Source: a virus. From it: 44,088 bases of DNA. Of the stretch, positions 23,565-44,088 are shown one piece after another (the first letter of the stretch is position 1; each line of letters begins with the position of its first letter). The stretch spans positions 1-44,088 of the IMG/VR virus record IMGVR_UViG_3300042897_000746. One strand, 5' to 3'. Made by a program: the position numbers and the translations under genes. Below the pieces are notes generated by a model that did no database searches, was not told the DNA's origin, and saw only the letters and a program-made list of their open reading frames with translations.

Positions 23565-24583
23565 ATTTTAACTTTTTGAATTTCAAGGTCTTCCATAAAT
23601 GTATAAGGATCTATGTTACCTTTATTTACCTCTTCTTTAAGATAAGAAATGGTTTCTTTAATAGTATCTTCCATATTTTTCTTAGGTTCCCATCCCATTG
23701 ATTTTGCTTTAGAGATATCGGCACGAATATTAAGAGCTTCACCTGCGATTGCTCCATATTGATCATAATCAACTTTTTCAAATCCCATAATCTTACCAAT
23801 GATATCTTTAAGATCCATTAAGGTTGTCATCTCACCAGTTCCAAGATTAAATGTTTGGTTGGCGGTATTTTCATTTTCCATACATAACATATGAAAGGCA
23901 TTTACATCATCCACATCAATATAATCTCTGGCTTTCATTGGATCACCGAAGATAATAGGATTCTTACCACCCATTAAACGAATAATGAACCCAGCAAAAA
24001 CAGGAGGTACTGTTCGGTTATAGTCTTGAAGAGGACCTGCTACATTAAAGTAACGAAGAGCAGTATAGTTAACTCCCTTTGTACGAGAATATGATTCTGC
24101 CAATAATGCAAGACATGCTTTAGTAGTAGAATAAATTGTAGTAGGATCCGATTGACCTTCATGAAAGCCTGTAGGTGGCATCATTTCATTTTCATAAACA
24201 GCAGAAGTTTCGCTGAAGATAACTCTCTTAACTTTACATTCAGCAGCAGCATCTAAGATATTAATACTACCTAAGATATTATTATCAACCGCTTCATATG
24301 GATTTGCATGACAGTCATAAATTGATACAAGACCTGCAAAATGATAAATGTATTCAGGTTTAAATTCAGAAATGATAGTCTTTACATATTCATTTCTAAT
24401 GTCTTCCTGGTAAAAGTTTTTAATCTTATCATGTACTTGTGGTAAATAAGTACCATGTGAAAGATTATCTACAACCGCGATGCAGTCTGGATTATGACCA
24501 CGATTCAAAAGGTCATTAATAAAGTTTGTTCCAACAAACCCGGCACCGCCGGTAATAAGGATTTTAGTTTCTTTAGTGTACAT
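23561..24583 (-). CDS. NAD-dependent sugar epimerase, GalE-like
   Basis: This is an extended short-chain dehydrogenase of 340 residues. It has the NAD-binding GGAGFVG (12-18), a FAGLVSIYDC substrate block, the catalytic Ser/Thr with YSTTK (Tyr-x3-Lys) and RYFNVAGP, all in the order seen in UDP-glucose 4-epimerases. It probably changes a UDP-hexose for the glycosyltransferases of this island. The stop overlaps the methyltransferase start by four bases. Confidence 0.88.
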   Translation of the reverse strand: MYTKETKILITGGAGFVGTNFINDLLNRGHNPDCIAVVDNLSHGTYLPQVHDKIKNFYQEDIRNEYVKTIISEFKPEYIYHFAGLVSIYDCHANPYEAVDNNILGSINILDAAAECKVKRVIFSETSAVYENEMMPPTGFHEGQSDPTTIYSTTKACLALLAESYSRTKGVNYTALRYFNVAGPLQDYNRTVPPVFAGFIIRLMGGKNPIIFGDPMKARDYIDVDDVNAFHMLCMENENTANQTFNLGTGEMTTLMDLKDIIGKIMGFEKVDYDQYGAIAGEALNIRADISKAKSMGWEPKKNMEDTIKETISYLKEEVNKGNIDPYTFMEDLEIQKVKI

Positions 24584-24584
24584 A

Positions 24585-25835
24585 TTATTGGTTTTGTGTT
24601 ACTCGTTCATACGCTTCCCAGATTTTGTTATCAACATGTTCTCCGGTATAATATGAATCTTTTAGATATTTAGTTTGAAGATTATAGAATAATGTTTTAT
24701 AATGCTCTGGGTTTTCATTTAGATACTCAATTTTCTTTTTAAGATCTTCTGGTGATTTACAACGAATAAAATGATCCTTTGGAAACACATTAAATTCAGT
24801 ATCGTAAGATGGGTGTAAGAAAGGTATAATACCATAATGTAGCATTTCGGCATACTTAGAAGTGACCATACCCTCTTTAATAGGAACGCAGAACGTATAT
24901 TTAGTGTTAAGGAGTTCTTTGGTTAAAGATTCAATTCTCATTTCTCCTTTAAAGTAATTTGGATACTTTTGAACCAATTCATCATCCCATTTACCATAGA
25001 TGTCAGTTTGAATTCCGGTTTCTACAATGTATTCTCTAACCGGATCCCAACGATCCATTCCACCGGAACCTTTACCTTGATTTTGCAACATCATAAATGA
25101 ATTGGTCTTTTTCATATTGAATAATTCATCGATGTTATATCTCTTCTTATCTAATAAGAATACTGTTTCAATACCAGAATATTCAAATGTAGAATGTATT
25201 TTTGCAGTTTCTCTAGTAGGAGGATTGCAGAAGTACTCTTCATCCAATTCAAAGTTATTTTGTGCAAGGTAATATGTAGGACGATTGTGTGCTTGATAAT
25301 CTTTTGCGGCAAGAATAAATCTATTATCTACTAATAAACCTACAATTGGAGTTTTAGGCATTTCATTAAGAGCCTTAATGATAGGTGCTGCATAATACTT
25401 AAAGAAGTCTAATGACTTAACAGTACCAGTACCATCAACCTTATTAATAAAGTTTTCAATATTAACGGTACTTGCAGGACCTGTGTAGAAAAAGATATAG
25501 TCTAATCCTAATGACTTAATAATTTCAACGGTTTCTTCTGTTGATTTTCTTTCATCCATCTTTGAGTGAAACTCCTTAATGTTAGATGGAATAGAACTTT
25601 GTGTTTCTGGTGCAGGACCAAATAGAGGAGCAGCTTTAGGTTTTTCTTTTGCTCTAACCTTTCCTAAATCGTTAGGGCTAAGAAGCCAATATTCAACATT
25701 AGGATTTCTTTTTGCAATTGCACAGATTAATTGTTTAGGTTCACAATCCCCACCAATTGCATTCCAACTATTTTCATTAAACTTAATAGCCTTACCAAGT
25801 TTAAAGAAGCCTACTTTTTTTACGTTTTCTTTCAT
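24585..25835 (-). CDS. Glycosyltransferase-like protein (GT-B-like C-terminus)
   Basis: The 416-residue protein has a C-terminal half like GT-B enzymes: IYGKWDDELVQKYPNYF, then LNTKYTFCVPIKEGMVTSKY and AEMLHYGIIPFLHP, where the last block resembles the donor site. The N-terminal half has VGFFKLGKAIKF and FFYTGPASTVN. I do not recognise the exact family. It sits one base after the nucleotidyltransferase stop and one base before the epimerase, so it belongs to the sugar-nucleotide operon and probably uses its product. Confidence 0.62.
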   Translation of the reverse strand: MKENVKKVGFFKLGKAIKFNENSWNAIGGDCEPKQLICAIAKRNPNVEYWLLSPNDLGKVRAKEKPKAAPLFGPAPETQSSIPSNIKEFHSKMDERKSTEETVEIIKSLGLDYIFFYTGPASTVNIENFINKVDGTGTVKSLDFFKYYAAPIIKALNEMPKTPIVGLLVDNRFILAAKDYQAHNRPTYYLAQNNFELDEEYFCNPPTRETAKIHSTFEYSGIETVFLLDKKRYNIDELFNMKKTNSFMMLQNQGKGSGGMDRWDPVREYIVETGIQTDIYGKWDDELVQKYPNYFKGEMRIESLTKELLNTKYTFCVPIKEGMVTSKYAEMLHYGIIPFLHPSYDTEFNVFPKDHFIRCKSPEDLKKKIEYLNENPEHYKTLFYNLQTKYLKDSYYTGEHVDNKIWEAYERVTQNQ

Positions 25836-25836
25836 A

Positions 25837-26541
25837 TTATTTAGCTTGGATTAATTCTTCAATTACTTTTTTATCTTGTTCATATGTTAAATCATACCAA
25901 TCAATATCAAGATGTTGAATATCTAAATTATCCATTGAATTGATAAGATGAGTGATTTCGTATTCGTTACGATTAGACAGTTTAATACTGCTTAAGTTAT
26001 CAAATGCTTCTTTTGCAAAAATCATATAACCACAAAAATATCTACCGCTTACAACGCCATGAGGTTTTTCTACAACGACATTATCTAGGATAGTTGCTAA
26101 TTGAAGATTCCTTGCCCTAGTTTCATAATCTCTGAATGTAATAATACTCCTTTTAGGATCATGGTATTCTAAACCAATATTACCGCGATAAAAGTTATCC
26201 CCAAATAGACATAGGAAAGGTTCATAAAAAGCCCCTTCCCATGCTTTAATAGCCGCACCCGGACCATATTCATCATCCTTTTGAAATTCATAATAAATAT
26301 CAATCTTACCTTTATATTCGGATAAGGCTTCAATGATAGGATGAGATAACTTAGTATTATTCTTAAAGAAGAAGTCCGATTTACTAATCGTTACATATGC
26401 TTCTTCGATTCCGTTTTCAATACAGAATTCAATACAATATTGAACTGTTGATTTTCCAAGAATAGGATCAATTAGTTTATTTGATCCATACCTAGTTGAT
26501 TTTCCAGCAGCTAGGATAATTGCTTTTTTTACTCTACTCAT
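25837..26541 (-). CDS. Sugar-phosphate nucleotidyltransferase
   Basis: The 234-residue enzyme has ILAAGKSTRYGSNKL (residues 9-23), a form of the GxGTR-x(n)-K nucleotide-binding loop, and LFGDN with the metal-binding Asp. This is the NTP_transferase fold that makes NDP-sugars or CDP-alcohols from a phosphate and NTP. The end PILGKS replaces the usual P-K-P-L block. Overlap with the upstream kinase by four bases suggests that the kinase product is its substrate. Confidence 0.85.
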   Translation of the reverse strand: MSRVKKAIILAAGKSTRYGSNKLIDPILGKSTVQYCIEFCIENGIEEAYVTISKSDFFFKNNTKLSHPIIEALSEYKGKIDIYYEFQKDDEYGPGAAIKAWEGAFYEPFLCLFGDNFYRGNIGLEYHDPKRSIITFRDYETRARNLQLATILDNVVVEKPHGVVSGRYFCGYMIFAKEAFDNLSSIKLSNRNEYEITHLINSMDNLDIQHLDIDWYDLTYEQDKKVIEELIQAK

Positions 26542-27284
26542 TTTGAATATTTTATATCAAGTTCATTAAATAGTTCATGTCCTTTTTTAAGGAATGTACC
26601 GGCCAACTCATATCTTTCATTTAATTCAAAAAATGGAACAGCTCCTAAAAGATGAACCGCCAAATAGAATTTCAAAAGATATTCATCGTACCATTCATAC
26701 ATAATTTTCTCGGCTTCTTTACAAAACTTTGAATATTTTGTACTTTGGTTATTGTATATATGGGTTTCATATTCCATCGCAAAGGATTGCATAAGTTTAC
26801 CGAAGTCATAATAATCCTGTTCTTCTGTTCCTCTAGGATCAATAAAGATAAATTTATTATCATAAAGAATATTACTAACCGTTAAGTCTCCGTGTACAAA
26901 ACCCCATTTAGAAACTCCGTTTAGATTACCTTCATAATGATATCCAGTTCTTCCTTCTAATTTATCAAGATATGATCTGGTATCAACATCCTTACCATAC
27001 CCTTCAAATTTATTAATTATCTGTATAAGATCCTCTAATTGAGTAATTGATTTAGTAATAGATTGTTCACATATTTGATCATACCATGTTGGGAACTTCT
27101 TCATCTTATATGAATATTCACCAATTGGATCAATCTTAATAAAGTTAGGATGTTGGCAATTAAGAAGCCAATCCATTTGTTGTTTAAACTTTTCAGGATA
27201 AACACCAGCTTCTTTTACTACAAAGCTGTCATGGAGATAAACTTTATCTCCGCTGTTTCCAATTAAAATTTTACTATCAGACAT
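26538..27284 (-). CDS. Aminoglycoside-phosphotransferase-fold small-molecule kinase
   Basis: The 248-residue protein has FVHGDLTVSNILYD (His131, Asp133, Asn138) and FIDPRGT (Asp149), the catalytic loop and metal site of the APH/choline-kinase fold, with a VVKEAG lysine at 24 for ATP. It likely phosphorylates a sugar or amino alcohol that the following nucleotidyltransferase activates. It overlaps the upstream HAD gene by 22 bases and the nucleotidyltransferase by 4. Resistance is unlikely given this context. Confidence 0.82.
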   Translation of the reverse strand: MSDSKILIGNSGDKVYLHDSFVVKEAGVYPEKFKQQMDWLLNCQHPNFIKIDPIGEYSYKMKKFPTWYDQICEQSITKSITQLEDLIQIINKFEGYGKDVDTRSYLDKLEGRTGYHYEGNLNGVSKWGFVHGDLTVSNILYDNKFIFIDPRGTEEQDYYDFGKLMQSFAMEYETHIYNNQSTKYSKFCKEAEKIMYEWYDEYLLKFYLAVHLLGAVPFFELNERYELAGTFLKKGHELFNELDIKYSK

Positions 27285-38957: not shown

Positions 38958-38978
38958 ATTTCCGTTTTTTAATTTATA

Positions 38979-38986
38979 TAAATATA
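38979..38986 (-). promoter_or_regulatory. Possible -7 box TATATTTA for sigma gene
   Basis: The minus strand reads TATATTTA, one base off the TAnnTTTG box, 22-29 bases before the ATG, followed by TATAAATT. It follows the hairpin at 39041-39074, so a new transcript must start about here. Which of the two overlapping boxes is used cannot be told. Confidence 0.35.
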
Positions 38987-39040
38987 ATACAAAAAATTGG
39001 GAAAAAAAAATTTTTCGTAGACTTTTTTCTCTCTGGAGTG

Positions 39041-39074
39041 AAAAAAGTTATTAACAATCCGGTTGTTAACAACT
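39041..39074 (-). terminator. AT-rich hairpin plus T-run upstream of sigma gene
   Basis: On the minus strand AGTTGTTAACAA and TTGTTAATAACT pair over 12 bases (11 Watson-Crick) around CCGGA, then TTTTT. It fits a terminator, although the stem is AT-rich. As DNA it is also a 29-base inverted repeat next to the 23-bp tandem repeats, so a protein-binding role is possible. Confidence 0.5.
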
Positions 39075-39090
39075 AAACATATTTAGGCAC

Positions 39091-39165
39091 TTTACAGTTT
39101 GTAGGCATTTCACTTTACAGTTTGTAGGCATTTCACTTTACAGTTTGTAGGCATTTCACTTTACA
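39091..39165. repeat. Three perfect 23-bp direct repeats (iteron-like)
   Basis: The unit TTTACAGTTTGTAGGCATTT followed by CAC occurs three times head to tail without any change (39091-39113, 39114-39136, 39137-39159) and a fourth copy starts (TTTACA). The 23-bp period is about two helical turns, as in iterons of replication origins. The units lie in non-coding DNA between two hairpins. No spacers are present. Origin, partition or regulator binding are all possible. Confidence 0.85.
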
Positions 39166-39166
39166 T

Positions 39167-39197
39167 AAAAAAGGGTAGCCTCGGTTAGAAGCTACCC
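39167..39197 (-). terminator. Intrinsic terminator ending the candidate ncRNA
   Basis: On the minus strand GGGTAGC and GCTACCC form a 7-bp GC-rich stem with an 11-base loop, followed by TTTTTT. No recognisable gene ends within 340 bases upstream, so the transcript it ends must be mostly non-coding. Confidence 0.85.
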
Positions 39198-39400
39198 ATA
39201 CAGGATCGTGTTCGTATTATTCAGCTCGGCAGCTATATCTCTTTTTGCGTCTTTGGCTTCTACTTTGACGGCCTACTGTACTTCGGCTGGTCTCATGTTT
39301 CTTCACCTACAATGAGAAGTTGACGGCACACGTTTTTTGATTCCAAACCAGACTGTTGCTTCCCTGGTTCTGCAGTAATAACCTAAGTTATTTACTGCTC
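39167..39400 (-). ncRNA. Candidate structured non-coding RNA downstream of DUF2828 gene
   Basis: Between a terminator-like hairpin (39451-39519) and an intrinsic terminator (39167-39197) lie ~230 bases without a usable reading frame. They can form several hairpins on the minus strand: GCAGTAA-ATAAC with GTTA-TTACTGC (39372-39398), AACCAG with CTGGTT (39346-39369), TCTCAT with ATGAGA, and the terminator stem. GCCGTCAA occurs twice. The region looks more GC-rich than the surrounding intergenic DNA. A TATAAA-like element precedes it. I see no tRNA, tmRNA or RNase P signature. It lies next to a TROVE-like protein, a family known to bind Y RNAs, but the match to Y RNA is not established. Confidence 0.45.
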
Positions 39401-39450
39401 TGCATAGTTGAATTTATAGTTTATACATTTGCTGTATCGATCCATAATTT

Positions 39451-39519
39451 CAAAAAACAGGATAACTTTTCGAACTATTGATAATTGTATGTAGTATAAA
39501 AATTTGCGGAAGTTATCCT
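39451..39519 (-). terminator. Long-loop hairpin with T-run after DUF2828 gene
   Basis: On the minus strand AGGATAACTT and AAGTTATCCT are perfect 10-bp complements separated by 41 bases, followed by GTTTTTTG. It starts 23 bases past the stop of the DUF2828 gene. A terminator is likely, though the loop is unusually long; a processed RNA end is an alternative. Confidence 0.5.
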
Positions 39520-39541
39520 TATTATTTATATTGACTAACTG

Positions 39542-40981
39542 TTAATTAGTTTCATATTTAATTTGTTGGTATCTCTCCTTATTAAGGGTTTCCATCATAA
39601 TAGATACCGGAGTCATTTCTGCTCCACCTAAAAGTGATGTCATAATAGAAGGTGAGAATCCACTAATGAGTGCAGTGCCTTGTTCATCGAATCTAACCGG
39701 AACATTTTCACCGCGAGATTGAATATTCCAATAGATGATATTAGGCATTTCATATCCGGCATCCTGGAACATTTGACGAACCATTTCCTGTGCAGTTTGA
39801 TTCCATACAGAAATATTCTCTTCTCTTGTCCAACCACCTCTTGCATCAGTAGCCTGATCAAATTCCATATCTGATAGAATCAAAATTTGAGTAGGCATTT
39901 CATCCTGTGGAATTGAATGTCTCTTGGCCTGATTCAAGATCAATTGATAAACAGCCTGTAGGTTTGTATTCATACCCCAATCAGCATGAGCTAATTGGTC
40001 GAATCTGCTTTTTAGATCACCTGTTAAATGTTGCAGTTTAGGACTATTAGAGAAAGTAATAAAATGATCCTTGAATGGGCCTTCATTTCTCTCACTGATA
40101 TACAATCCCAAAGATATCGCGACATCCATACAGGTAAGATTACCTCCACATGAAGTACTCATTGAACCAGATACGTCGACTAACGGCAAGATTCTTTCAG
40201 TGTTACCTTCTAGGTAATTAGGAAGAGCTTTCCACTGTTCTTGTGCTGCATCATTAGTGTTAAGAGATTTGGTAATATCATAAGGATATACTGCAGCAGC
40301 ATTAATCTTAGCTTCACCTTTCTTAAGGCTTTCAATATAAGAAGAGAATTTTTCAGGTGTATGTTTCTTAAAGCTTTTGCCATAACGTGACATTGCCAAA
40401 GAAGGTACATGTTCATAGTTAATGTTCTCCCACACATTGGCACACATTTGTGTTTCAACTACCTTAGTAAGTTCCACCAACTTCTTACGGTAACCTTTAG
40501 GACTCAATCCCATAAAACCTTTTAGCTTAGAAGCAAAGGTACCTTTACGTGGCATCCATTTTGCACATAGGCCATTCCCATCAGTAAGGGCTTTATCAAT
40601 AAGTGACATTGCATAGTCTTCAGATGAAGTACCCTCAAAGATAAGGAGATCATCCCAGCGACCATATTCAGGAATAAACCCAATTACATTGGCCATGCCC
40701 TGAGGATCAACATCAGCAAGATACTTAATAGCAATACGGAAGAAACGACGTTCTCCAGCTCCACCACGAACATCACGGATCCAAAATAGGTTACGAAGAC
40801 ATGTGGTTTGATCTTCATTCCATGCCTTTGATACCAATGCGATAATATCAGCCTCTTCAGCTGCTCTCATTGCACCGCCTTTGAAAAACAAATCAACATT
40901 GTAATTCAATGAAGTTGTGTTAGTGGCCATTCCATTTTCAGTAACAGCTCCTGCCATTTTTAATGCCTCAGTAAGTTTCAT
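39542..40981 (-). CDS. DUF2828-family protein: TROVE-like helical repeats plus vWA domain
   Basis: The product (479 residues from ATG 40981; the frame to 40990 starts only with TTG) has an N-terminal helical-repeat half. It contains FWIRDVRGGAGERRFFR (66-82), EYGRWDDLL (105-113) and CAKWMPRKG, the hallmarks of DUF2828. The C-terminal von Willebrand A domain has an intact MIDAS: DVSGSMS (Asp269, Ser271, Ser273), MNTNLQAVY and ILSDMEFD. The layout parallels Ro60/TROVE proteins, ring-shaped binders of Y RNA and damaged RNA. A TATAAATA box lies 25-32 bases upstream and a candidate RNA gene follows it. RNA binding is inferred from the fold relation. Confidence 0.82.
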   Translation of the reverse strand: MKLTEALKMAGAVTENGMATNTTSLNYNVDLFFKGGAMRAAEEADIIALVSKAWNEDQTTCLRNLFWIRDVRGGAGERRFFRIAIKYLADVDPQGMANVIGFIPEYGRWDDLLIFEGTSSEDYAMSLIDKALTDGNGLCAKWMPRKGTFASKLKGFMGLSPKGYRKKLVELTKVVETQMCANVWENINYEHVPSLAMSRYGKSFKKHTPEKFSSYIESLKKGEAKINAAAVYPYDITKSLNTNDAAQEQWKALPNYLEGNTERILPLVDVSGSMSTSCGGNLTCMDVAISLGLYISERNEGPFKDHFITFSNSPKLQHLTGDLKSRFDQLAHADWGMNTNLQAVYQLILNQAKRHSIPQDEMPTQILILSDMEFDQATDARGGWTREENISVWNQTAQEMVRQMFQDAGYEMPNIIYWNIQSRGENVPVRFDEQGTALISGFSPSIMTSLLGGAEMTPVSIMMETLNKERYQQIKYETN

Positions 40982-41005
40982 AATTGCCAAATTAAAATCA
41001 GTTTC

Positions 41006-41013
41006 TATTTATA
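41006..41013 (-). promoter_or_regulatory. TATAAATA late box before DUF2828 gene
   Basis: The minus strand has an exact T4 late consensus TATAAATA, in CAATATAAATAGAAAC, 25-32 bases before ATG 40981. It lies in the 44-base gap after the HAD gene, so the DUF2828 gene may be transcribed late as well as by read-through. Confidence 0.5.
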
Positions 41014-41025
41014 TTGAATGTTTCG

Positions 41026-41634
41026 TTATTGTTTAAGAAATGATAAGATTTTTTCCTTCACACCACTTTGTTTAATTCCTTCTCTACTGCTAGGAGTAAG
41101 TACAAAGTTTTCCAATCCCCATGATCTTTCAACCTCTCCTCTCCAATCAGTTGTTCTCTTTCCCATATCCAGGTCATCTACAGCAACCCAGTGAGTTACT
41201 TCAGAGTGATCTCTTAACCAACGAAGAATTTCAAAATGTCTAGTTTGTTCTAAATCATTTTGCCTAGTCCAAGGAAAATCACCATCTCTTGGTAGGAATC
41301 CATCTTCATGCCAGTTGGTATAATGAAACACCTCAGTTGTTGCAATAGGTCTTTTAATGATACCTTGTGCTTCATAGTAATCTCCGAGTTCTTCTAGGGA
41401 TGCATGAAGTCTCCAATCAGATGATACCACAATTTCTGCTCCGGTTTCTTCAATGATACTATTTAGAACAGCAATAGCTTTCTTATCAAAATTATCAAAC
41501 CGGTATTTAACCGGCATTTCCTTAGTGGTCATAGAGAGTTTTCTTCCTCCCCATTCCTTTTGCTTTTTATAACGGCCGCCCCAGTTATTGGCAAGACAGA
41601 TTACACCGTCATTATCTAAAAATATAACTTTCAT
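41026..41634 (-). CDS. HAD phosphatase of the 'Swiss Army Knife' RNA-repair type
   Basis: The 202-residue protein has VIFLDNDGVI (Asp7 nucleophile and Asp9), EIVVSSDWR (Ser71/72, motif II) and WVAVDDLDMG (motif IV). VIFLDxDGV...IVxSSxWR is the pattern of the HAD_SAK domains described in RNA-repair proteins, which can remove terminal phosphates from nucleic acids. It lies 44 bases before the TROVE-like DUF2828 gene. A perfect 15-base palindrome sits 10 bases before its ATG. The RNA substrate is inferred from family and context. Confidence 0.75.
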   Translation of the reverse strand: MKVIFLDNDGVICLANNWGGRYKKQKEWGGRKLSMTTKEMPVKYRFDNFDKKAIAVLNSIIEETGAEIVVSSDWRLHASLEELGDYYEAQGIIKRPIATTEVFHYTNWHEDGFLPRDGDFPWTRQNDLEQTRHFEILRWLRDHSEVTHWVAVDDLDMGKRTTDWRGEVERSWGLENFVLTPSSREGIKQSGVKEKILSFLKQ

Positions 41635-43285: not shown

Positions 43286-44088
43286 TTAGGATATCTTTTT
43301 GAATTCTACATCAATCTTAGAATAGTCAACGGCGTAGTATTCACCTTTCGTTATCACAGCATTTTCAAATGCGGTTCCGATTAACTCTTGTGCCATAACA
43401 CCTTGATATCTACCTTCCATTCCAACTTGATCTACATATTCAAATTCGTAAATGTTTATTCCACCAGTTGATATTCCGATTTGTTGGATATTTTTCTTAA
43501 GTCTCATATCGGATGCATTTTCCCATGCAGGTACATATAGAGTAGGACCGTTTTGACATATCAGTTCAATCCAACCGTATGCAACATAGTTAGTATCATC
43601 TGGAACTCCGTTATAGAATCCAACAAATGATGCGATTGCCGGGGCACCCACACAAGTAAATCCTGCACCAGGAGCACCACTAGGACCAGCCGGACCCTGA
43701 GGACCAGTAGGACCAGGACCACCAGCAGGACCAGGCCCACCAGCAGGACCAGGACCACCAGGACCACCAGCAGGACCAGTACTTCCTTGGAATCCAGTAG
43801 GACCGTTAGAACCAGTTGCACCGCGGAAACCTTGAGGGCCTTGGAAACCACCTGGACCAGGACCACCTTGAGAACCTTGGAAACCACCTGAACCAGGACC
43901 ACCTGTGGCACCTTGGAAACCAGGACCACCACCAGGACCATTACCACCAGTGGCACCTTGGAAACCAGTTAAACCACCTGAACCAGGACCACCTTGTGGA
44001 CCAGTACTTCCTTGGAAACCAGTTAAACCACCTGAACCAGGACCACCTTGTGGACCAGTACTTCCTTGGAAACCAGTTAAACCACCTG
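43286..44088 (-). CDS. Collagen-like fibre protein with C-terminal S74 chaperone domain (N-terminus beyond window)
   Basis: The frame enters at the right edge and has no stop until 43286. From the edge to ~43662 it is unbroken Gly-x-y, such as GFQGSTGPQGGPGSGGLT, a collagen-like triple helix. A short spacer (FTCVGAPAIASFVGFYNG) follows. The C-terminal S74 domain is seen in NASDMRLKKNIQ, YEFEYVD, RYQGVMAQEL and YYAVDYSKIDVEF. Ser and Lys five residues apart in SDMRLK are the autocleavage dyad, so the last ~75 residues probably release themselves after helping the trimer fold. It is likely a tail or head fibre for host binding. Confidence 0.9.
   Translation of the reverse strand, partial: GGLTGFQGSTGPQGGPGSGGLTGFQGSTGPQGGPGSGGLTGFQGATGGNGPGGGPGFQGATGGPGSGGFQGSQGGPGPGGFQGPQGFRGATGSNGPTGFQGSTGPAGGPGGPGPAGGPGPAGGPGPTGPQGPAGPSGAPGAGFTCVGAPAIASFVGFYNGVPDDTNYVAYGWIELICQNGPTLYVPAWENASDMRLKKNIQQIGISTGGINIYEFEYVDQVGMEGRYQGVMAQELIGTAFENAVITKGEYYAVDYSKIDVEFKKIS
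43962..44088 (-). repeat. 54-bp tandem repeats in the collagen-like region
   Basis: Two perfect 54-bp copies (43962-44015, 44016-44069) and 19 bases of a third reach the window edge. Each encodes 18 residues, six Gly-x-y triplets. Related shorter units continue to ~43800. Perfect copies point to recent expansion, and copy number is likely to vary. Confidence 0.88.

Follow-up and report, generated by a model that had tools for sequence, protein, structure and literature searches.

Introduction

Among the closest described counterparts of the locus analysed here is the bacterial pair of Ro60 (Rsr) and its Y RNA YrlA (RF02553), with which it shares a Ro ring, here a predicted one, encoded beside short same-strand RNAs whose terminal stem is formed from both ends. 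In Deinococcus, Rsr is described as tethered to PNPase by a Y RNA (PMC7790460), and why bacteria and phages keep Ro60 together with a Y RNA is an open question. Among phages, a review of jumbo phages connects TROVE proteins and, separately, stand-alone Swiss-army-knife HAD phosphatases with RNA repair (PMC7824862). A Ro60-like protein, recognised by structure, is mentioned in a survey of mycobacteriophages (PMC12363180), and one related to Ro60 in work on a Vibrio jumbo phage (PMC7765460). For Listeria phage CKA15, three highly transcribed non-coding regions were reported at most 2 kb upstream of the Rsr-like gene CKA15_055 and suggested to be Y RNAs; the same study credits mycobacteriophage Y RNAs to Chen et al. 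2014 (PMC12282133).

Here we describe IMG/VR virus record IMGVR_UViG_3300042897_000746, positions 1 to 44,088 (the window, to which all unprefixed positions refer). It is part of the genome of a tailed phage and carries T4-like genes for portal, head protease, UvsX-like and SbcC-like proteins, ribonucleotide reductase and DNA polymerase. On its minus strand a gene for a Ro60-like protein is followed by two RNAs, module A and module B, and taken as a whole the locus is probably best explained as encoding a phage Ro60-Y RNA ribonucleoprotein. A sequence-only reading of the window had proposed a Ro-RNA particle as part of a possible RNA-surveillance cassette with a HAD_SAK phosphatase. The particle is retained here, on a predicted Ro60 fold with a Y-RNA-like family beside it; the cassette is not, as the HAD_SAK-Ro arrangement is not conserved.

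Results and Discussion

A predicted Ro60 fold in a separate sequence family

The Ro-like protein (Table 1) was matched by the Pfam profiles DUF7788 (182.7 bits) and DUF2828 (117.1 bits) and by phrog_850, the 'RNA-binding protein' family of PHROGs (512.9 bits). Its AlphaFold2 model, made with 58 aligned sequences, had a predicted local distance difference test score (pLDDT) of 87.2 and a predicted template modelling score (pTM) of 0.88, and the best Foldseek matches of the model were Ro proteins (E = 2.5e-8 to 2i91). In the VIA-align ranking rows 1-10 were all Ro/TROVE proteins, 1yvp (Ro with RNA) being aligned at Z = 21.5 over 410 residues (3.7 A); row 11 had Z = 9.7 and aligned on the vWA part. 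The likeness to vertebrate Ro60 (1yvp, and 2i91 at Z = 21.2) covers the whole length of the fold, while sequence identity is only 13-14%. Furthermore, the five residues of the metal ion-dependent adhesion site (MIDAS) were invariant in 18 aligned relatives.

By sequence the family stands apart. The TROVE profile PF05731 did not match the window protein at E <= 1, nor any of eight records with relatives, and neither PADLOC nor NCBIfam gave a match for the Ro-like or the HAD protein. A sequence search of solved structures found nothing with the window protein alone; with the family profile it gave weak TROVE and Ro60 matches (best E = 0.0027). The Ro60 of Thermus phage phiLo (9l5y) is also phage-encoded and aligned to our model at Z = 15.2, but it is deposited as a TROVE-domain protein and matched the family profile only weakly, at that same E-value. 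The window protein is Ro60-like by its predicted fold, helical part and vWA part included, and belongs to a separate family by sequence. The helical-plus-vWA layout first proposed for it is borne out, since the predicted structure matches Ro60 best; a DUF2828 structure lacking an RNA-binding ring had been named as evidence that would speak against an RNA particle, and it is the Ro60 fold that is predicted.

A search of 50,697 phage records (E <= 1e-5) found relatives of the protein in 681; in 680 of these a single place covers 80% or more of the query. The hosts of these phages include Escherichia, Mycobacterium, Salmonella, Vibrio, Listeria, Staphylococcus and Campylobacter. The Campylobacter phages Los1, PC5, CP39 and F341 have two matches per record, possibly second copies. 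For the window gene we used the ATG at 40978; its entry in the open reading frame list begins at a TTG at 40990.

Two RNAs downstream of the Ro-like gene

The first hint of an RNA was a run of 128 non-coding nt that is 87.5% identical to two related loci (L006 and L007) in which the Ro protein is about 60% identical. The non-coding stretch spans 39166-39541 and its longest stop-free frame is 49 codons. What had been described as one hairpin-rich RNA of ~230 bases with a terminator is indeed non-coding and does end in a terminator, but it is 376 nt long and holds two RNAs instead of one. Both have stem arms at their two ends with CAGCAA or a variant of it alongside. Module A matched model R1 (31.8 bits, E = 4.4e-6) and module B model R2 (145.6 bits, E = 5.5e-37); the window is absent from R2, in which its close relative L002 is included. 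Positions 39160-39541, terminator included, fold better than dinucleotide shuffles (z = -2.75; one of 100 shuffles reached as low). Conservation is higher in module B than in the Ro coding DNA: identity to L006, L035 and L098 is 79, 75 and 74% for the whole module, against 64, 66 and 65% for the coding sequence.

The two RNAs gave no tRNA with ARAGORN, no Rfam match at gathering score and no YrlA match. At E <= 5, Rfam produced three weak matches in the window, the best at E = 0.2; group I intron, RNase P, tmRNA and riboswitch were considered as identities for the large domain of module B and rejected for want of Rfam support.

A common handle accompanies the Ro-like genes

The related loci comprised the best 80 from each search, out of 250, at least 594 and 85 candidates, and lean towards closer relatives since only the best 80 were kept. 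Near-duplicate removal left 108 of 173 viral loci; the bacterial set comprised 74 of 80 loci that encode a protein of this family. In the gaps beside their Ro genes a unit recurs, often two or three times in tandem: a stem arm, three free nucleotides, CAGCAA, a loop, the partner arm and a G. We call this the handle; it may have been noted in earlier literature. The stem arms vary between units and yet pair.

Counted by a strict rule (perfect 7-bp arms, N3, CAGCAA, and the partner arm plus G 15 to 500 nt onward), the handle was present at 103 of 390 sense cores in the viral loci, 69 of which have at least one. Null counts in the same sequences were 3 for the arm's complement, 3 for its reverse and 4 for the same arm, and the antisense strand gave 2 of 257. 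The bacterial loci behaved alike: 74 of 306 cores and 40 loci with at least one handle, against nulls of 5, 3 and 7 and an antisense count of 2/229. Variant cores were rarer in the viral loci (CTGCAA 13/232, CCGCAA 5/106), and the comparison cores CAGGAA and AAGCAA gave 0/229 and 6/514. Across 31 aligned short modules all seven pairs showed changes on both sides, with 83 double-changed cells versus 22.8 after shuffling. By a crude T-loop pattern, the 103 strict viral modules divide into 61 short ones, 8 with a T-loop motif and 34 long ones without.

Model R1 was built from viral modules only, 31 of them; tests on bacterial loci, TROVE loci and Ro-less records are independent of its construction. 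At E <= 0.01 it matched 24 times in a bacterial test set, hitting 17 of its 30 loci and always the strand that encodes Ro; these 30 were hand-picked from the 80, some having strict hits and some not. In nine bacterial TROVE loci there was no R1 match at E <= 1 and no strict handle. Whole records with the protein matched in 21 of 23 cases (best E <= 2.1e-4 in each), a figure that holds partly by construction because some R1 modules come from the same records, and whole records without the protein gave 0/4 matches at E <= 0.001. The conservation of an RNA near DUF2828 genes in other phages, for which a covariance search had been suggested, is supported: the handle family accompanies the protein in phages and in bacteria. 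It makes Y-like RNAs findable in phage genomes and gives a direct binding test, and it points to phages of E. coli K-12 and Mycobacterium smegmatis in which protein and RNA could be removed singly.

Might the hairpins be elements of transcript processing or stability, serving as spacers in tRNA arrays or protecting the 3' end of the Ro mRNA, and not partners of Ro at all? Several modules do lie between tRNA genes with short spacers, and those of the window are in the 3' portion of the Ro transcript, ahead of the terminator. Yet a fixed CAGCAA next to a stem that is free in sequence has the look of a protein site, the Ro-less records (T5-like OSYSP among them) and the TROVE loci are without the handle at the thresholds given above, and many modules, the window's included, stand outside tRNA arrays. 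We regard this explanation as improbable.

Several observations weigh against reading the window RNAs as Ro partners. Modules A and B were detected by models R1 and R2 only: module A has CCGCAA and module B a U-U mismatch at pair 7, for which reason both miss the strict rule. The strict handle is missing in 39 of the 108 viral and 34 of the 74 bacterial loci, truncation and variant cores accounting for part of these, and the covariation count comes from modules chosen for pairing. R1 failed to match two of the 23 whole records that have the protein, matched one record without it weakly (E = 0.011) and, with filters off, gave weaker matches in the window from E = 0.049 upward. The consensus of the type-B domain of module B is poorly resolved (13 pairs by RNAalifold). 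In CKA15, the only abundant region placed by position in the cited sections of its study lies in another gap than the module array. A strict-rule scan of the whole window gave one hit per strand, far from the locus and with loops of hundreds of bases, and these were taken as chance.

Permuted tRNAs within the handle

In some modules the handle encloses, in this order, a T arm, the 3' half of an acceptor stem, a short loop, the 5' half of the acceptor stem and a D arm, which is a circularly permuted tRNA. Such modules occur in LeBron, wV8, S13, Enterococcus phage EfsSzw-1 and Bacillus phage FADO, in locus L170 and among the modules of records G003, G005 and G013. Below its cut-off, the Rfam YrlA model matched five permuted-tRNA modules (L087, L089, L256, L257 and L259; E = 2.6e-8 to 1.4e-3), and in whole records it matched two further modules, that of FADO at E = 0.008 and one with a long stem in Sinorhizobium phage phiN3 at E = 2.8e-7. 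On the wV8 and S13 modules it gave no match at E <= 1, and the permuted-tRNA reading there comes from sequence and fold. The gathering cut-off was exceeded in none of the 23 related whole records. YrlA also matched plain tRNA arrays and 9 of 14 control genomes, never above cut-off, and only handle-bounded matches were counted for this reason; those in plain tRNA arrays were not taken as Y RNAs since neighbouring tRNAs imitate a permuted one.

The permuted tRNAs within handles, together with the YrlA matches below cut-off, argue that these are Y-like RNAs. They resemble bacterial YrlA in this permuted domain, which some relatives of the window RNAs have; the window RNAs themselves differ from YrlA in having no tRNA-like domain. 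The systems also differ in their proteins, the window protein being missed by the TROVE profile, and next to the stem: two YrlA genes above cut-off near a TROVE gene (L268) have AAUG there, in place of CAGCAA or its variant. DUF2828-type Ro proteins therefore seem to have Y RNAs with a handle of their own. The mycobacteriophage protein annotated 'Ro-like RNA binding protein' belongs to the same family, and LeBron has three handle modules, one of them a permuted tRNA.

Two permuted tRNAs (L256:1090-1216 and L257:2071-1937) retain an apparent anticodon arm with the loop CUGUUAA (GUU) and a three-pair stem that changes between them, AGA/UCU and AGG/CCU. In a gammaproteobacterial contig, a handle module (L177:3217-3334) apparently has its D arm before its T arm, the normal order, and its acceptor stem is not clear.

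Handle modules also stand in tRNA arrays. In G001, the 139.8-kb contig of the window's close relative L003, a tmRNA gene and 22 tRNA genes form an array with two further handle RNAs in it; the first separates tmRNA from tRNA-Gly and the second tRNA-Pro from tRNA-Thr. Modules between tRNA genes were likewise found in G005, G013, G014, wV8 and FADO. The link to tRNA lies in this location and in the tRNA mimicry of some family members, not in the window RNAs. In the G001 array (L255:1538-1919, G001:C1) ARAGORN reports a phage tmRNA with a 24-residue tag, with a handle module directly after it and then the 22 tRNA genes.

The type-B domain

Module B represents a separate long type with 65 nhmmer matches in related loci, duplicates and split matches counted. 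Alignment A5 (34 sequences) shows a covarying terminal stem, a three-pair helix joining the middle to the 3' part and a 3' hairpin around GCCG; the handle pairs of module B covary at two of six positions. In sub-groups of the type, CAGCAA sits in a small hairpin of its own. We found no tRNA feature in the domain, and it was not found in Listeria phage LMSP-25. The locus L004, with a Ro protein of 81% identity, has kept both handles but not the domain, which argues for a modular RNA in which the handle is constant and the domain exchangeable. Type B would represent a new kind of RNA domain, its partner still to be found.

Other long handle-bounded domains, of ~170-270 nt, lie in L172 (2649-2841) and L173 (2650-2896) and, downstream of Ro, in L061 and L079. 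They matched neither YrlA nor, in nhmmer searches, type B and are probably further domain types.

Abundant RNAs of Listeria phage CKA15

In CKA15 (OR088597.1) the gene of the Ro homologue, CKA15_055, occupies 23695-25215 of the minus strand, and its product belongs to the same protein family (its LMSP-25 relative is phrog_850-like). The gap that adjoins it upstream, 25216-25610, contains three strict modules (25290-25552) that follow a promoter-like TTGACA site at 25603. The promoter pattern occurs at six sites in the CKA15 stretch examined, with one lying closely upstream of each of the three gaps. In the sections of the study cited here, its authors put forward Y RNAs without structural analysis, and the most transcribed region, 26,236-26,727, corresponds to the middle gap, 26143-26800 (PMC12282133). 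We infer that the module array corresponds to another of the three, and the handle offers an identity for abundant Listeria phage RNAs that have been unexplained. The gaps 26143-26800 and 26876-27212, which have no strict handle and begin with promoter-like sites, would be other unexplained RNAs.

The CKA15 study also reports CKA15_055 in purified particles, with 20 peptides and 57.1% coverage (PMC12282133). This would fit a Ro particle that is carried in the virion, loaded with Y RNA, and acts at the start of infection, an idea compatible with the ribonucleoprotein reading preferred here. It concerns one phage only, and large ribonucleoproteins can co-purify with particles; for the present we think it unlikely.

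A model of the particle

We propose that the Ro60-like ring would bind both adjacent RNAs through their common handle, the end stem with its neighbouring CAGCAA. That the ring is loaded with handle RNAs, a physical binding inferred here, is very likely. Module A, barely more than a handle and a loop, might cover or gate the ring, and module B might present its 230-nt domain to a second factor, much as the Deinococcus Y RNA does for PNPase; by this analogy we give gating by one RNA and tethering by the other an even chance. During infection the particle would take damaged or misfolded stable RNAs, tRNA foremost, and sort them or dispose of them. Cut or damaged tRNA as the substrate is a tentative suggestion, and that the particle serves to repair cut tRNA is a guess.

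More broadly, the DUF2828-type Ro proteins of phages and bacteria may form a second Ro-Y RNA lineage, its handle a platform for exchangeable domains that are absent, a permuted tRNA, or large and new like the 230-nt type B, with phages having several of these RNAs together, beside the Ro gene as well as within tRNA arrays, in large amounts and perhaps also in the virion; taken jointly, we would hold these statements to be as easily wrong as right.

The HAD_SAK neighbour and other features of the locus

On the minus strand the HAD_SAK gene precedes the Ro-like gene, module A, module B and the terminator (Table 1), and these are followed by a 23-bp tandem repeat and a sigma-factor gene. The call of a HAD_SAK phosphatase holds: the HAD_SAK_2 profile matched at E = 6.6e-22, scoring 78.8 bits where the cut-off is 27.5, and the DxD motif is present (N-terminal FLDNDG). 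This gene and the DUF2828/vWA gene are indeed adjacent and co-oriented, an arrangement that would fit an RNA-repair cassette in which the HAD protein cleans RNA ends and the Ro particle presents broken tRNA. HAD_SAK proteins are associated with RNA repair and stand alone in jumbo phages (PMC7824862), and in LMSP-25 an RtcB gene lies three genes downstream of Ro. As a conserved unit, however, the pair is not supported: by tblastn (E <= 1e-3) across 254 loci, the HAD gene was found only in the window and its closest relatives (L002/L096, L003 and L004). A HAD_SAK gene occurs anywhere in just nine of 23 whole records, at least ~7 kb from Ro in eight of these, and RtcB in two of 23. HAD_SAK is probably not an obligatory part of the Ro system, and the repair cassette appears a poor candidate beside a Ro60-Y RNA ribonucleoprotein.

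Table 1. Positions of the Ro-like locus and its RNAs in the window
Feature	Positions	Strand	Details	Basis
Ro60-like protein (DUF2828 + DUF7788, phrog_850), 478 aa	39542..40978	minus	helical part and vWA part; MIDAS residues D268, S270, S272, T338, D370	Pfam, PHROGs, alignment, AlphaFold2 model
Module A, short Y-like RNA	39456..39521	minus	10-bp terminal stem; CCGCAA replacing CAGCAA	model R1, fold
Module A stem, 5' arm	39510..39519	minus	10 complementary bases	
Module A stem, 3' arm	39459..39468	minus		
Module B, long Y-like RNA	39198..39446	minus	type-B domain (~230 nt) between handle arms; CAGCAA core	model R2, nhmmer family, alignment A5
Module B handle, 5' arm	39438..39443	minus	6 bp, then U-U mismatch	
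Module B handle, 3' arm	39203..39208	minus		
Intrinsic terminator	39167..39197	minus	10-bp hairpin 39173-39197 and U run 39167-39172; -17.6 kcal/mol	fold
HAD_SAK_2 phosphatase-like protein, Ro neighbour	41026..41634	minus		Pfam

The interval between the terminator and the sigma-factor gene holds, at 39088-39165, a perfect 23-bp tandem repeat of 3.4 copies, and the gap is 46 nt shorter in the relatives L002 and L003. Upstream of the sigma-factor gene, short elements at 38967-39011 and 39041-39058 form an imperfect inverted repeat, possibly regulatory, and recur downstream of Y RNAs in many related loci. Finally, the window edge (43561-44088) consists of long Gly-rich, collagen-like tandem repeats, and the relative L003 has such an open reading frame of 532 aa.

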